Source: Cruoricaptor ignavus (lineage in GTDB: Bacteria > Bacteroidota > Bacteroidia > Flavobacteriales > Weeksellaceae). Taken from it: 64,000 nt of DNA. The position numbers and the translations under genes were made by a program. Of this stretch, positions 9,471 through 13,632 are shown piece by piece (the first letter of the stretch is position 1; each line of letters begins with the position of its first letter). The notes beneath the pieces were generated by a model. The model searched no databases. It saw nothing but the letters and a program-made list of their open reading frames with translations, and was not told the origin of the DNA. The stretch is from assembly GCF_900141665.1 (NCBI RefSeq), contig NZ_FQYI01000005.1, forward strand, positions 62,001-126,000. The letters are read 5' to 3'.

Positions 9471-11087
9471 TTATTTGGTGTAAAGCCGCATCCTTGCTTC
9501 GTATTCTGGCTTCAGCTGCAGGAATTTCCAAATTTTCTTTTCGTCCGGGTGGCTTAGCCGGTAGAAAATTATTTTATCCGCCGAATTTTTGAAGTACGGA
9601 TGCGTTTTCAGCCAATCTTCCGGCGCATCCACAAGGCTGTATTTTTGAACGCTTGTAGTATTGAGTTGAGTGGAATTTACCAATTTTGTCGCCAACTCTT
9701 TGTCGATTTCATAAGTATCCACAACTTGCTGAGTGTTCACAAAACCGCCAAGTTTTTTGCGGAAACTTAAAAGCATTGCCGCATCTTTCTCGGAAAAGCC
9801 AAACTCACGCAATTGTTTGAAGGTTATTTGGTTCAAATCCACTTTTGCGAAATCCGTAGGGCCAGGGCTTTCCGGTGCTGCAGGTTTCGGAGCGCTTTTC
9901 GGCGCTGCAGGTTTTGGTGCAAATTGCGCAGAATGCTGCTGTGTATTTCGTGGTGCTGTGCCTGAAAAATTCTCAGGATTCAGCCTGATGAACGGCTTGA
10001 GCTCCCAATATTTGTCCTCATTTATCACGAAGCAATTCCTGATGTCTTCCAAACTTCGGAAGCTCCCGCGCAAATTTCTGTCACGGTAATTCACGATAAC
10101 CTGGGCCTGTTTCTCGCTGAAACCCAGCGCTTTCCATCCGTCAAAATCCAGAAGATTCGGGTCAAACGGCGCAAGCTCCACCTTCGGTTTCTCCCTTCTT
10201 GGAAAGCGCGAATAATCTTCCGGCGTTTTCTCTGGCAAAATCAAATACGGCGCAAGTTTAGCATAATTTTCATCGGAAATAATGAAGCATTCCCTAAATT
10301 TTTCCTTGCTCACGAAACTTCCGCCCAAGTAATTTTTGTACTTCAAAATTGCGGCAGACTGTTTTTCCGAAAAACCCATTTTTTCCCAATCTTGCTGTGA
10401 AAAATCATCAGGGTTAAACTTGCCCGGAATTTTCAGCTCTCGTTTTTCCCGCCCTGCAAATCGAGAATAGCTGGCAGGCGTTTTTTCTGGCAATATGAGA
10501 TACGGCGCAAGTTTGGTGTAATTTTCCTGCGAAATAATGAAGCACTCCTTAAACTTTTCCTTGCTCACGAAACTTCCGCCCAAGTAATTTTTGTACTTCA
10601 AGATCGCGGCAGACTGCCTTTCGGAAAAACCGAGTTTTTCCCAGTCTTTCTGCGAATAATGATCCGGATTAAACCTGCCCGGAATTTTAATTTCTCGTTT
10701 TTGATAACCGACAAAACCGCTTTCAGGCAGCAGGATGTAAGGCTCAAGCTGCACATACATCTCAGCTGAAATGGCGTAGCATTTTTTAAACTGCTGCTTC
10801 GATTTGAAACTGCCGCCAACAACATTCTTATAGTTCAGAATCGTCTTGGCCTGGCCCTTGCTGAAGCCAAGTTTCTGCCAATCCTCCGCCGATAAATCAT
10901 TCGGGTCAAATTCCGCGAGAAATTCCGGGTTAAGCTGCTCCGAAAGGAATTCCACCTCAATTTCCTTCGGTGGATTTTTCTTTTTGTAATACGAAAATCC
11001 CAGCTGAAACCCAAGCACCAGCAAAGCCAAAATTACCAGCGCAAAACTCTGCCTCCGGTACATCGTGCGAGCCAGTTTGGATTTCAT
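9471..11087 (-). CDS. Membrane-anchored protein with tandem helix-hairpin-helix repeats
   Basis: The 538-residue protein has one N-terminal transmembrane helix (about 15-33), then ComEA-like HhH modules of the form FxPxxxxxxxWxxLGFSxxQAxxIxxYK...GGSFxSxExFxxCFxI. Units start near residues 60, 137, 222 and 306, with a more divergent one near 420 after an Ala/Pro/Lys-rich linker and a weak sixth at the C-terminus. The second and third units are nearly identical, also in DNA (46 identical bases at 10301-10346 and 10556-10601, offset 255). HhH modules usually bind DNA non-specifically; a periplasmic DNA-uptake role is possible but unproven. Confidence 0.8.
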   Translation of the reverse strand: MKSKLARTMYRRQSFALVILALLVLGFQLGFSYYKKKNPPKEIEVEFLSEQLNPEFLAEFDPNDLSAEDWQKLGFSKGQAKTILNYKNVVGGSFKSKQQFKKCYAISAEMYVQLEPYILLPESGFVGYQKREIKIPGRFNPDHYSQKDWEKLGFSERQSAAILKYKNYLGGSFVSKEKFKECFIISQENYTKLAPYLILPEKTPASYSRFAGREKRELKIPGKFNPDDFSQQDWEKMGFSEKQSAAILKYKNYLGGSFVSKEKFRECFIISDENYAKLAPYLILPEKTPEDYSRFPRREKPKVELAPFDPNLLDFDGWKALGFSEKQAQVIVNYRDRNLRGSFRSLEDIRNCFVINEDKYWELKPFIRLNPENFSGTAPRNTQQHSAQFAPKPAAPKSAPKPAAPESPGPTDFAKVDLNQITFKQLREFGFSEKDAAMLLSFRKKLGGFVNTQQVVDTYEIDKELATKLVNSTQLNTTSVQKYSLVDAPEDWLKTHPYFKNSADKIIFYRLSHPDEKKIWKFLQLKPEYEARMRLYTK

Positions 11088-11184
11088 AACTATTTAGTTT
11101 TCAGGCGAAGATAAAAATTTAACTTCAATGTACAAGTCAAAGTAAATACCTATTATCACTCATCGCTCATTCACAAATTATCTC

Positions 11185-11192
11185 TATCTTTG
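11185..11192 (+). promoter_or_regulatory. rpsA promoter -7 box (TATCTTTG)
   Basis: TATCTTTG matches TAnnTTTG exactly and lies 115 bases upstream of the rpsA ATG, implying a 5' leader of about 110 nt. No clear -33 TTG is visible. Confidence 0.6.
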
Positions 11193-11209
11193 CAAAACTT
11201 TTTGCGAAG

Positions 11210-11290
11210 GGTCTGGGAAAGTGTAAGTTATTCACTATTAACAACTTCCTGAGTTTTCGGTTCGCCAAGGCAGACCGCCGAAAAGGAGGG
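11210..11290 (+). promoter_or_regulatory. Structured rpsA mRNA leader, pseudoknot-like
   Basis: Two perfect complementary pairs interleave. GGTCTG (11210-11215) pairs with CAGACC (11271-11276), and TTTTCGG (11254-11260) pairs with CCGAAAA (11278-11284). Because each stem starts inside the loop of the other, together they would form an H-type pseudoknot ending at the AGGAGG at 11284-11289. The ATG is 18 bases beyond AGGAGG, too far for standard initiation. S1 autoregulates its own mRNA in enterobacteria, so an autoregulatory leader is a reasonable inference. No structure was calculated. Confidence 0.45.
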
Positions 11291-11307
11291 AATACAAAAT
11301 TTATTTT

Positions 11308-13113
11308 ATGTCTGAATTACAAGACGAGGTTCTGATGAACCAAAATGTTTCACCTGAGGAGTTTGACTGGGATTCCTTCGAAAGCGGCCTGGATGCCGAT
11401 GCAAGAAAGGAAAAGACGGACCTTCAGGAAATCTACAACGACTCCCTGAACGATTTGGAGGACAATGATGTGCTTGTTGGCAAAGTGGTGAGAATCACGG
11501 ACAAAGAAGCGATTGTGGACATCAACTTCAAATCTGAAGGAGTGATTTCCCTAAACGAATTCCGCTACAACAATGACCTAAAAGTAGGCGACGAAGTGGA
11601 AGTGATGGTGGACAGAAGGGAGGACAAAAACGGGCAGCTGCAGCTCTCGCACAAGAAAGCGAGAACGCTGAGGGCCTGGGATAAAGTAAACGAGCTGAAC
11701 GAAACCGGTGAGGTGGTGAACGGCTTCGTAAAATCCCGTACGAAGGGCGGTATGATTGTGGATATCTTCGGAATCGAAGCCTTCCTGCCTGGTTCTCAAA
11801 TCGATGTGAAGCCTATTAAAGATTACGACCAGTATGTGGGCAAGACGATGGAATTCAAGGTGGTGAAAATCAACCCGGAATTCAAGAATGTGGTAGTGTC
11901 TCACAAAGCGCTCATCGAAGCGGATATCGAAGATCAGAAGAGAGAAATCATCGCTCAGCTGGAGAAAGGTCAGGTTTTGGAAGGCACGGTGAAAAACATC
12001 ACTTCTTACGGTGTGTTCATCGACCTTGGCGGTGTGGATGGTTTGATTCACATCACGGATTTGTCTTGGAGCAGAGTGAACCACCCTTCCGAAATTCTGG
12101 AGGACGGCCAAACTGTGAAGGTGGTAATCCTAGATTTCGACGACGAGAAAACGCGCATCCAGCTGGGTATGAAGCAGCTTGAACCGCACCCTTGGGAAAA
12201 ACTTTCCGAAGAGCTGAAGGAAGGCGATAAGGTGAAAGGCAAAGTGGTAGTGGTAGCAGATTACGGCGCTTTCGTAGAGGTAGCACCTGGTGTGGAAGGC
12301 CTTATCCATGTATCGGAAATGTCCTGGTCAACGCATTTGAGAAGTGCAGGAGATTTCGTGAAGGTGGGCGATGAAGTGGAAGCCGTGGTGCTTTCTATCG
12401 ACAGAGAGGAGCGCAAGATTTCCCTTGGTATGAAGCAGCTGAGCAGCGATCCTTGGGAAAACATCGAGCAGAAATATCCTGTGGGAAGCAAGCATACAGG
12501 TACGGTGCGGAACTTCACGAACTTCGGTGTATTTGTGGAGCTTGAGGAAGGCATCGATGGTTTGATTTACATCTCGGACCTTTCATGGACGAAGAAAATC
12601 AAGCATCCATCCGAATTCTGCAATGTGGGCGATAAACTGGATGTAGTAGTTCTTGAGCTTGACACAGCAGCAAGAAGATTGTCGCTCGGTCATAAACAGC
12701 TTCAGGAAAACCCTTGGGATAAATTCGAGCAGAAATATGCCGAAGGCACGGTGCATACCGGAAAAGCGAGCGATGTGTTCGACAAAGGTGCACAGGTGCA
12801 GTTTGAGGATGCTGAGGTTGAAGCATTCTGCCCGGCAAGATTGCTGGAGAAAGAGGACGGCACGAAGATTAAGAAAGGTGAGGAGGCTGAGTTTAAAGTA
12901 ATTGAATTCAACAAAGACTTTAAGCGTGTGGTGGTCTCTCACACAGGAACATTCCGTGAGGATGACCGCAGAGGAAACTCCGGAGGCGGCAGTAAAAACC
13001 AAAGCCAATCGAATAACGCTGCGGCCGTGGTATCTACCGGCGACGAAAGAGCGACGCTTGGAGACATAGATGCTCTGGCAGAACTAAAAAGAAGAATGGA
13101 AGAGGGGCAGTAA
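11308..13113 (+). CDS. rpsA: 30S ribosomal protein S1
   Basis: This 601-residue protein contains six S1 (OB-fold) RNA-binding repeats, beginning near residues 50, 135, 220, 305, 390 and 480. The central ones are clearest (GVFIDLGGVDGLIHITDLSW, GAFVEVAPGVEGLIHVSEM, GVFVELEEGIDGLIYISDLSW). It recruits mRNA to the 30S subunit. A low-complexity Gly/Ser/Asn-rich tail follows. Codon use is strongly biased (few rare codons, many GGT/CTG/GAA), as expected of a highly expressed gene. A structured leader precedes it and a strong terminator follows. Confidence 0.97.
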   Translation: MSELQDEVLMNQNVSPEEFDWDSFESGLDADARKEKTDLQEIYNDSLNDLEDNDVLVGKVVRITDKEAIVDINFKSEGVISLNEFRYNNDLKVGDEVEVMVDRREDKNGQLQLSHKKARTLRAWDKVNELNETGEVVNGFVKSRTKGGMIVDIFGIEAFLPGSQIDVKPIKDYDQYVGKTMEFKVVKINPEFKNVVVSHKALIEADIEDQKREIIAQLEKGQVLEGTVKNITSYGVFIDLGGVDGLIHITDLSWSRVNHPSEILEDGQTVKVVILDFDDEKTRIQLGMKQLEPHPWEKLSEELKEGDKVKGKVVVVADYGAFVEVAPGVEGLIHVSEMSWSTHLRSAGDFVKVGDEVEAVVLSIDREERKISLGMKQLSSDPWENIEQKYPVGSKHTGTVRNFTNFGVFVELEEGIDGLIYISDLSWTKKIKHPSEFCNVGDKLDVVVLELDTAARRLSLGHKQLQENPWDKFEQKYAEGTVHTGKASDVFDKGAQVQFEDAEVEAFCPARLLEKEDGTKIKKGEEAEFKVIEFNKDFKRVVVSHTGTFREDDRRGNSGGGSKNQSQSNNAAAVVSTGDERATLGDIDALAELKRRMEEGQ

Positions 13114-13130: not shown

Positions 13131-13160
13131 AAAACCGCTTCGAAAGAGGCGGTTTTTTTT
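13131..13160 (+). terminator. Intrinsic terminator of rpsA
   Basis: AAACCGC/CTC arms fold as AACCGCTTC...GAGGCGGTT with loop GAAA, followed by eight T residues, 18 bases after the rpsA stop. Confidence 0.9.
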
Positions 13161-13208: not shown

Positions 13209-13562
13209 TTACTTCTTAAACGGAGCGTCTTTAATTCTCGCTTTCTTACCGCGGAGATTACGGAAGTAAAAGATTCTCGCTCTGCGAACTTTACCTCTTC
13301 TATCTACCTCAATTTTCTGTAGCGCCGGCATATTGATAGGGAATACCCTTTCCACGCCCACTTCACCGCTCATTTTCCGGATGGTAAAAGTCTTCGTAAG
13401 ACCTGTTCCGCGAAGCTGAATCACAGTCCCCTTAAAGAACTGCGTTCTCGTTTTCTGCCCTTCCTTAATTTCGTAGTACACCGTGATAGTATCGCCGGCT
13501 TTGAATTCAGGAAACTCTTTCTTTGTGATGTACTTGTCCTGTACATACCTCACTAAATCCAT
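13209..13562 (-). CDS. rplS: 50S ribosomal protein L19
   Basis: This 117-residue protein of the large subunit lies at the 30S-50S interface. FKAGDTITVYYEIKEG, RTQFFKGTVIQLRG and FTIRKMSGEVGVERVFPI are the family blocks, followed by the basic KVRRARIFYFRNLRGKKARIK tail. I start at MDLVRYVQ, since the longer frame adds eleven residues from an alternative start. It is monocistronic, with its own promoter and terminator, and convergent with rpsA. Confidence 0.97.
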   Translation of the reverse strand: MDLVRYVQDKYITKKEFPEFKAGDTITVYYEIKEGQKTRTQFFKGTVIQLRGTGLTKTFTIRKMSGEVGVERVFPINMPALQKIEVDRRGKVRRARIFYFRNLRGKKARIKDAPFKK

Positions 13563-13632
13563 GATTTTGAATAAAATAAATTTAACGCTAAGCAACTTAC
13601 ACGGCTCTCGTCAGAGGTTGATTAACAGGCGG

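Follow-up and report, generated by a model that had tools for sequence, protein, structure and literature searches.

A predicted kissing-hairpin leader of rpsA in Cruoricaptor ignavus and other Bacteroidia, a candidate for feedback by ribosomal protein S1

The mRNA of rpsA, the gene of ribosomal protein S1, is predicted from sequence comparison to begin in Cruoricaptor ignavus with two hairpins that are joined through their loops and lie just before the start codon. This leader is proposed to be a cis-acting RNA by which S1 controls its own synthesis, a reading to which a probability of about 0.6 is given and in which we infer both S1 as the ligand and the regulation itself. The window, that is, the whole stretch of 64,000 nucleotides that was analysed, belongs to a genome of 2.23 Mb, and the features of the locus are as follows (all on the + strand, in window positions):

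11185–11192, −7 promoter box TATCTTTG (TAnnTTTG), from the sequence; it places the predicted +1 at 11197
11197–11202, 5′ strand of P0 (ACUUUU), from the low-energy fit, beginning at the predicted +1
11204–11208, 5′ strand of helix a (GCGAA) in the P0 loop, from the fit and the swap and alignment tests
11210–11215, 5′ strand of helix b (GGUCUG) in the P0 loop, from the sequence, the fit and the swap tests; first stem of the initial annotation
11217–11222, 3′ strand of P0 (GAAAGU), from the fit and the swap test
11223–11245, A-rich linker between the hairpins, left unpaired by the fit, with the same A-richness in relatives; candidate contact of S1
11246–11250, outer 5′ strand of helix c (UUCCU), from the fit and the alignment tests
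11254–11260, inner 5′ strand of helix c (UUUUCGG), from the sequence and the alignment tests; second stem of the initial annotation
11261–11265, 3′ strand of helix a (UUCGC) in the c loop, from the swap tests and the fit
11271–11276, 3′ strand of helix b (CAGACC) in the c loop, from the sequence and the swap tests
11278–11284, inner 3′ strand of helix c (CCGAAAA), from the sequence and the alignment tests
11288–11292, outer 3′ strand of helix c (GGGAA), from the fit and the alignment; it overlaps AGGAGG and is not complementary to the genome's own 16S tail
11292–11297, AUACAA closing the structured leader; its columns are invariant or nearly so in 44 aligned leaders (alignment A1), where the pattern used to extract leaders itself demanded ATACAA
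11308–13113, rpsA, ribosomal protein S1, with an NCBIfam equivalog match above cut-off and six Pfam S1 stretches
13134–13160, terminator-like hairpin with a T-run right after rpsA, by eye from the sequence

The predicted +1 was set at 11197, the first base of P0, because the −7 box lies at 11185–11192 and TAnnTTTG is taken to span −12 to −5, as described for F. psychrophilum (PMC9723704). Given this position, a transcript starting after 11215, which the initial annotation had named as fatal to its pseudoknot, is unlikely. Counted from the predicted +1 to the ATG at 11308, the structured region belongs to the 5′ UTR of the r-protein gene rpsA and the leader is 111 nt long, compared with a median of 24 nt reported for F. 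psychrophilum (PMC9723704). The hairpin and T-run directly 3′ of rpsA suggest a one-gene transcript, and rpsA looks monocistronic. The gene upstream is divergent from rpsA (9471–11087, − strand) and encodes a protein of 538 aa that has helix-hairpin-helix stretches and matches ComEA below the cut-off. Downstream, an L19-Flavobacteria ribosomal leader (RF03130; 13593–13620, − strand) precedes an L19-like ORF (13209–13595) convergent with rpsA, so that two r-protein leaders are found inside about 2.5 kb.

In leaders of the same family, the elements follow the order TAnnTTTG, P0 5′ strand, a, b, P0 3′ strand, A-rich linker, c 5′ strand, a′, b′, c 3′ strand, AUACAA and AUG. Helices a and b are thus formed between strands in the P0 loop and partner strands in the c loop, giving two loop-loop pairings in crossing order, and the 3′ end of helix c lies 15 nt ahead of the AUG. 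Of the 97 leaders in which P0 was found, 93 have its first base no more than one position away from the predicted +1 (range of the fit, −3 to +9). Helix placements in the fit were picked for low energy and are a description, the swaps and shuffles being the tests; in the window, the fit gave four pairs of helix a and the fifth, A11208–U11261, was added by hand. The initial annotation had proposed an H-type pseudoknot, on the grounds that GGTCTG (11210–11215) with CAGACC (11271–11276) and TTTTCGG (11254–11260) with CCGAAAA (11278–11284) are perfect complements that interleave. Both complementarities were found as described, and the interleaving order holds, since a with b and b with c each interleave (order a, b, a′, b′); nevertheless, only two of the four helices had been seen, as P0, a and the outer part of c are also present.

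Taken alone, the two stems of the initial annotation are within chance and became credible only once relatives were compared: 209 of 2000 dinucleotide shuffles of 11193–11307 contained a perfect stem of 6 bp that interleaves with a perfect stem of 7 bp further on. Similarly, the minimum-energy fold of 11193–11330 was no better than that of its shuffles (z −0.44, 64/200). The fuller architecture exceeds chance in the window itself, where the kissing-hairpin score was matched in 1 of 250 shuffles and the score of a, b and c together in 0 of 40. The halves of the window's leader are not unique, however: when they were replaced by foreign ones, 5 of 98 3′ halves and 22 of 98 5′ halves paired as well as the window's own.

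A total of 148 genomes of the family were searched for relatives, leaders were taken from 129 of them, and leaders were also drawn from 36 of 105 other genomes of the order and from 60 of 96 genomes of other orders. The leader pattern failed at 15 loci (L117, L174, L178 and 12 of 20 other-order loci), and 178 leaders were kept: 136 from the family, eight of them second copies from the same genomes, 34 from the order and eight from other orders. Removal of near-duplicates left 73 family leaders and 32 leaders of other families. Six leaders with a wrong cut or no fit (L129, L146, L151, L161, L164 and L169) were excluded from the separate swaps of a and b, the strand counts, the kissing scans, the identity-limited swap and the foreign-half test, while the combined swap of a and b took all 73 and 32, including some cut at the wrong ATACAA.

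The sequence-only alignment A1 comprised 44 of the 73 family leaders, and in it the window's own a′ is displaced by a gap. RNAalifold recovered helix c from A1 unprompted, as the sole helix, with double changes at 8 of its 11 pairs. For a, b and c together, 82.0% of the cells were paired compared with 74.5% in shuffled alignments, a value above every slide; 84 cells carried double changes (33.8 shuffled, with 0 of 500 shuffles reaching 84), and 17 of the 23 pairs had a double change, a count reached by 4 of 500 shuffles. The proportion of paired cells was highest for c (92.8%), followed by a (82.9%) and b (58.8%). For helix a alone, 14 double-change cells were found compared with 3.4 in shuffled alignments; a slide of +2 has 13, with 11 further types compared with 10 for a, and is no worse on two of five measures. 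An R-scape-like null of our own, taken over all column pairs, gave no proposed pair at E<0.05 (best 0.71), probably because b and P0 slip by at least one column in the sequence-only alignment; with values rescaled to the 24 proposed pairs by our own arithmetic, five fell under 0.05, four of them in c and one in a. A conserved structure with compensatory changes, as expected of an r-protein leader, was found, with all-pairs E-values that are not significant.

Since column covariation over all pairs gave no significant proposed pair, swap tests were adopted, which need no alignment and give real and species-swapped pairs equal freedom. In crossing order, a and b paired better with their own partners than with swapped ones, both in the family (−20.3 vs. 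−15.2 kcal/mol, n=73, p=8e−14) and in other families (−17.6 vs. −14.7 kcal/mol, n=32, p=2e−4). The own pair came out among the top tenth for 40 of 73 family leaders and for 14 of 32 others. A control with nested pairing also beat the swapped pairs in the family (p=2e−9), but not in other families (p=0.16). Swapped separately, both helices were supported in the family (n=72; a, p=1e−10; b, p=3e−13; linker control, p=0.5) and in other families (n=27; a, p=0.005; b, p=1e−4; control, p=0.27). Helix c gave p-values of 1e−13 and 5e−8, and P0 gave 0.0014 and 0.0039, for the family and other families, respectively (controls, 0.66 and 0.24). P0 is weakly supported by these comparisons, as no more than 6 of 73 family leaders had their own P0 among the top tenth; c is much better supported. 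The swap difference was kept among leaders under 70% identical (n=29, p=4e−6) and under 62% identical (n=9, p=0.006). Moreover, the strands themselves were diverse, the 5′ strand of a occurring in 68 versions and that of b in 84 among 99 fitted leaders, and that of P0 in 51 among 97. The compensatory changes in relatives that the initial annotation had named as its check were thus found, in the swap tests and in the double-change pairs.

Kissing hairpins were also scored beyond the family. The score lay within the best 5% of a leader's own shuffles (40 each) in 63 of 72 family leaders, 22 of 27 from other families of the order and 27 of 57 from other orders of the class, while no kissing was found in 8 of the 57. 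An earlier scan (at most 5 of 100 shuffles) had given 56 of 72, 22 of 27 and 28 of 57, with no result for the window itself, probably from too short a candidate list, and was redone with another list and fewer trimmed helices. A promoter and a start were present at 57 of the 60 other-order loci, 27 of which had ATACAA; in these 27 AUACAA leaders, loops paired better with their own partners than after swapping (p=0.001; 8 of the 27 ranked among the top tenth), and so did the strands of c (p=5e−8). An initial swap test on eight other-order leaders had not been significant, and the sample was then enlarged to 27 and 57. Examples outside the order with one loop-loop helix are AUUCGACA/UGUCGAAU (L235), CUAAGGC/GCCUUAG (L227) and CCCUGAA/UUCAGGG (L183). 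Two other-order rpsA leaders (L194 and L223) are 33–34 nt long, too short for the element.

The restriction of the element to rpsA was assessed with a covariance model of helix c plus sequence, built on close relatives. The genome of the window had one strong match (E 3e−11), followed by one at 0.45, and 119 genomes of the order gave 26 matches at E≤0.01, one per genome, all 26 upstream of rpsA on the same strand. Twenty of them lay within 31 bases of the S1 match, and the other six at 103–457 bases, where the open frame continues past the match. The model misses genomes in which the helices are visible, such as G160 (leader L167); in the genomes searched, its matches were restricted to the gene of this r-protein.

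The initial annotation had also taken AGGAGG (11284–11289, 18 bases from the ATG at 11308) as a Shine-Dalgarno (SD) sequence. The motif and its spacing were confirmed, and the reading of the region as a true pseudoknotted rpsA leader with compensatory changes stood, but the SD role was rejected: AGGAGG pairs with the genome's own 16S tail at background level and is part of the 3′ strand of helix c. Both 16S copies found in the genome have the same 3′ end (GGAACATCTCATTTT, also given as AACATCTCATTTT), with the tail AUCUCAUUUU, and the tails of this and eight other family genomes have AUCUC replacing the canonical ACCUCC (two more family genomes gave no 16S match). A variant tail UCUCA of this kind has been described in Chryseobacteria and related genera (PMC9976891), to which the family of the window thus probably corresponds. 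Other tails beyond AUCUCAU were AUAUCUCUU, AUCUCUU, ACCUCAUU and AACUCCUU (L246, L248, L253, L250 and L251, in the own and related families). Against its own tail the rpsA region pairs at −3.8 kcal/mol, compared with a mean of −3.2 over the 46 window ORFs of at least 200 aa, rpsA included; rpsU carries a perfect match, AAATGAGATGT, pairing at −13.8 kcal/mol. The canonical tail, which is absent from this genome, would pair with the AGGAGG region at −12.7 kcal/mol. The complementarity to the own 16S tail that marks SD-led Bacteroidia genes of the rpsU type is thus lacking in rpsA, which has, like the gamma-proteobacterial rpsA leader, no canonical SD usable by its ribosome. AGGAGG occurred near the leader end in 2 of 73 family leaders (the window and L107) and in 1 of 32 others. 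In addition, 13 of 73 family leaders (e.g. L050, L052, L054, L115, L120 and L128) close the 3′ strand of c with GAGAU, which matches the alternative tail, and in these subclades an SD-like stretch is predicted to be buried in helix c. GAGAU does not follow the tail, since it stands at the same place with an AUCUC tail (L115) and with a CCUCC tail (L160, of another family) and is absent in 60 of 73 family leaders.

The lineage of the window barely uses SD sequences. In the proposed feedback, the folded leader would sit on the 30S platform next to S1; S1 on the 30S subunit would bind the linker and melt the fold, and initiation would go ahead. Free S1 in excess over 30S would bind the same element without melting it and keep the fold closed, holding 30S off the start region, so that the outcome would be negative feedback without an SD sequence. 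Several reports bear on this proposal. An H-type pseudoknot obtained by selection is reported to be bound by S1 with nanomolar affinity, and tmRNA, preQ1 and rpsO RNAs are reported to contain pseudoknots (PMC7708055). The asymmetry between free and 30S-bound S1 has a precedent, as melting of the rpsO pseudoknot by S1 was strongly stimulated on 30S (PMC3858243). Furthermore, E. coli S1 represses rpsA, with free and 30S-bound S1 competing on a start region without SD (PMC10931766), and F. johnsoniae ribosomes performed better on an mRNA without SD when S1 was added (PMC9976891). On the other hand, a viral IRES did not need its triple pseudoknot for S1-mediated activity in E. coli (PMC9458429); S1 may thus respond to single strands more than to knots, which counts against the proposal. 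A broader version is tentative and rather less probable than S1 feedback at this leader: a widespread Bacteroidia RNA, with two loop-loop helices in Flavobacteriales, might read the ratio of free to ribosome-bound S1, its kissing hairpins being locked by free S1 and melted by S1 on 30S. S1 is held on the 30S subunit mainly by protein contacts, and an rpsA RNA reading this ratio could therefore not copy an rRNA site, unlike other r-protein leaders.

The strongest competitor, although unlikely, is a constitutive translation enhancer or standby site, in which the pseudoknot and the A-rich linker would bring the 30S subunit, by way of its S1, to an SD-less gene in high demand, with no feedback. 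The tisB standby site, which requires S1, is similarly made of a 5′ pseudoknot and a single-stranded stretch (PMC7708055), and the layout here is alike, with structure at about +1, an unpaired linker and then the start region. However, helix c, the helix with the highest paired share, ends so close to the AUG that it looks inhibitory, and the lack of any other model match below E 0.4 in the genome fits feedback better than a general enhancer. A quite improbable alternative is a stabiliser of the mRNA 5′ end, where a hairpin at +1 locked by loop-loop pairing would block 5′-dependent decay; the position of P0 at the predicted +1 in nearly all leaders agrees with it, but it does not require a second hairpin beside the start codon, and c is far better supported than P0. 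There is just as little chance that the leader senses another signal than S1, be it a small molecule, another r-protein, temperature or magnesium, as every model match in the order precedes rpsA and leaders before a single r-protein gene are, by published practice, assigned to that protein (PMC7247131).

It is very improbable that rpsA is an SD-led gene under bS21-free ribosomes, as rpsU is, with helix c masking the SD. The strong pairing of AGGAGG with a canonical tail and the GAGAU stretches of some relatives would suit it, but the own tail, the same in both 16S copies, refutes it for this genome, and GAGAU does not track the tail. Chance complementarity is just as improbable: the shuffles of the two stems and the fold energy would allow it, against which stand the compensatory changes in relatives and the swap, alignment and kissing-shuffle tests. 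Two further candidates were rejected. A switch pairing the a strand with an upstream CCAC copy was discarded, as the copy lies mostly upstream of the predicted +1 and is absent in the window and in L007; so was transcription attenuation, as no terminator-like hairpin was found on the + strand of 11000–11400.

Regarding known systems, the alpha operon (S4) has another pseudoknot r-protein leader, and the gamma-proteobacterial rpsA leader is a three-hairpin fold. Unlike the latter, the present one is a two-hairpin, loop-loop pseudoknotted fold. Both share the gene, a structured start region, the absence of a canonical SD and an AU-rich single strand (PMC10931766 for E. coli and gamma-proteobacteria). 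The rpsO (S15) leader similarly places before an r-protein gene a pseudoknot that the ribosome must open and that S1 melts (PMC3858243), but that knot extends into the coding region and comes with an SD, neither of which applies to the rpsA knot, and gene and ligand differ. The S1-dependent standby site of E. coli tisB also combines a 5′ pseudoknot with a single-stranded stretch (PMC7708055); its pseudoknot is, however, a 5′ stem-loop one and its single-stranded site precedes the RBS by about 100 nt, whereas here an r-protein gene is preceded by two kissing hairpins that end 15 nt before its AUG. The flavobacterial and Bacteroidia r-protein leaders of Eckert and Weinberg (L13, S4, S15, S16; L19) are likewise lineage-specific and structured (PMC7247131), and Table 1 of that paper contains no S1 leader, nor does its main text contain the words pseudoknot, kissing or loop-loop. 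In the same lineage, bS21/rpsU of Flavobacteriales is a case of translational self-control of a 30S protein (PMC9976891), which uses an extended SD and bS21-free ribosomes, whereas rpsA lacks an SD that fits the 16S tail of its genome.

Searches of the window and 28 relatives with Rfam (release 15) gave no family at or above its gathering score over the leader. The window had three sub-threshold matches, none over the leader on its strand; at eight relative loci searched at E up to 1 there was none at the leader, and at 20 further loci searched at gathering score only Flavo-1 appeared, in L152. L152 is from a genome of another family, and there the Flavo-1 RNA (RF01705, of unknown function) occupies 1170–1255, immediately 5′ of the rpsA leader. 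In F. psychrophilum, 64 structured 5′ regions were reported, and rpsA is not mentioned in the main text of that paper (PMC9723704). Among titles and abstract starts, no Bacteroidota rpsA leader was found in the literature searched, in which subscription papers are thinly covered and a prior description is possible, and nothing was found on how SD-poor Bacteroidota set the level of S1.

S1 is probably a key mRNA-binding ribosomal protein in SD-poor Bacteroidota, and the many compensatory changes of the leader make the question of the S1 level testable by simple pair-swap mutants. The comparison across the class points to an RNA whose loop-loop helices differ in number, one or two, among orders. 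If the feedback proposed for the rpsA leader is true, S1 control would have been solved a second time with a different structure; if the broader reading of the S1 ratio is true as well, the leader would serve as the S1 gauge in a lineage whose translation starts without SD pairing.
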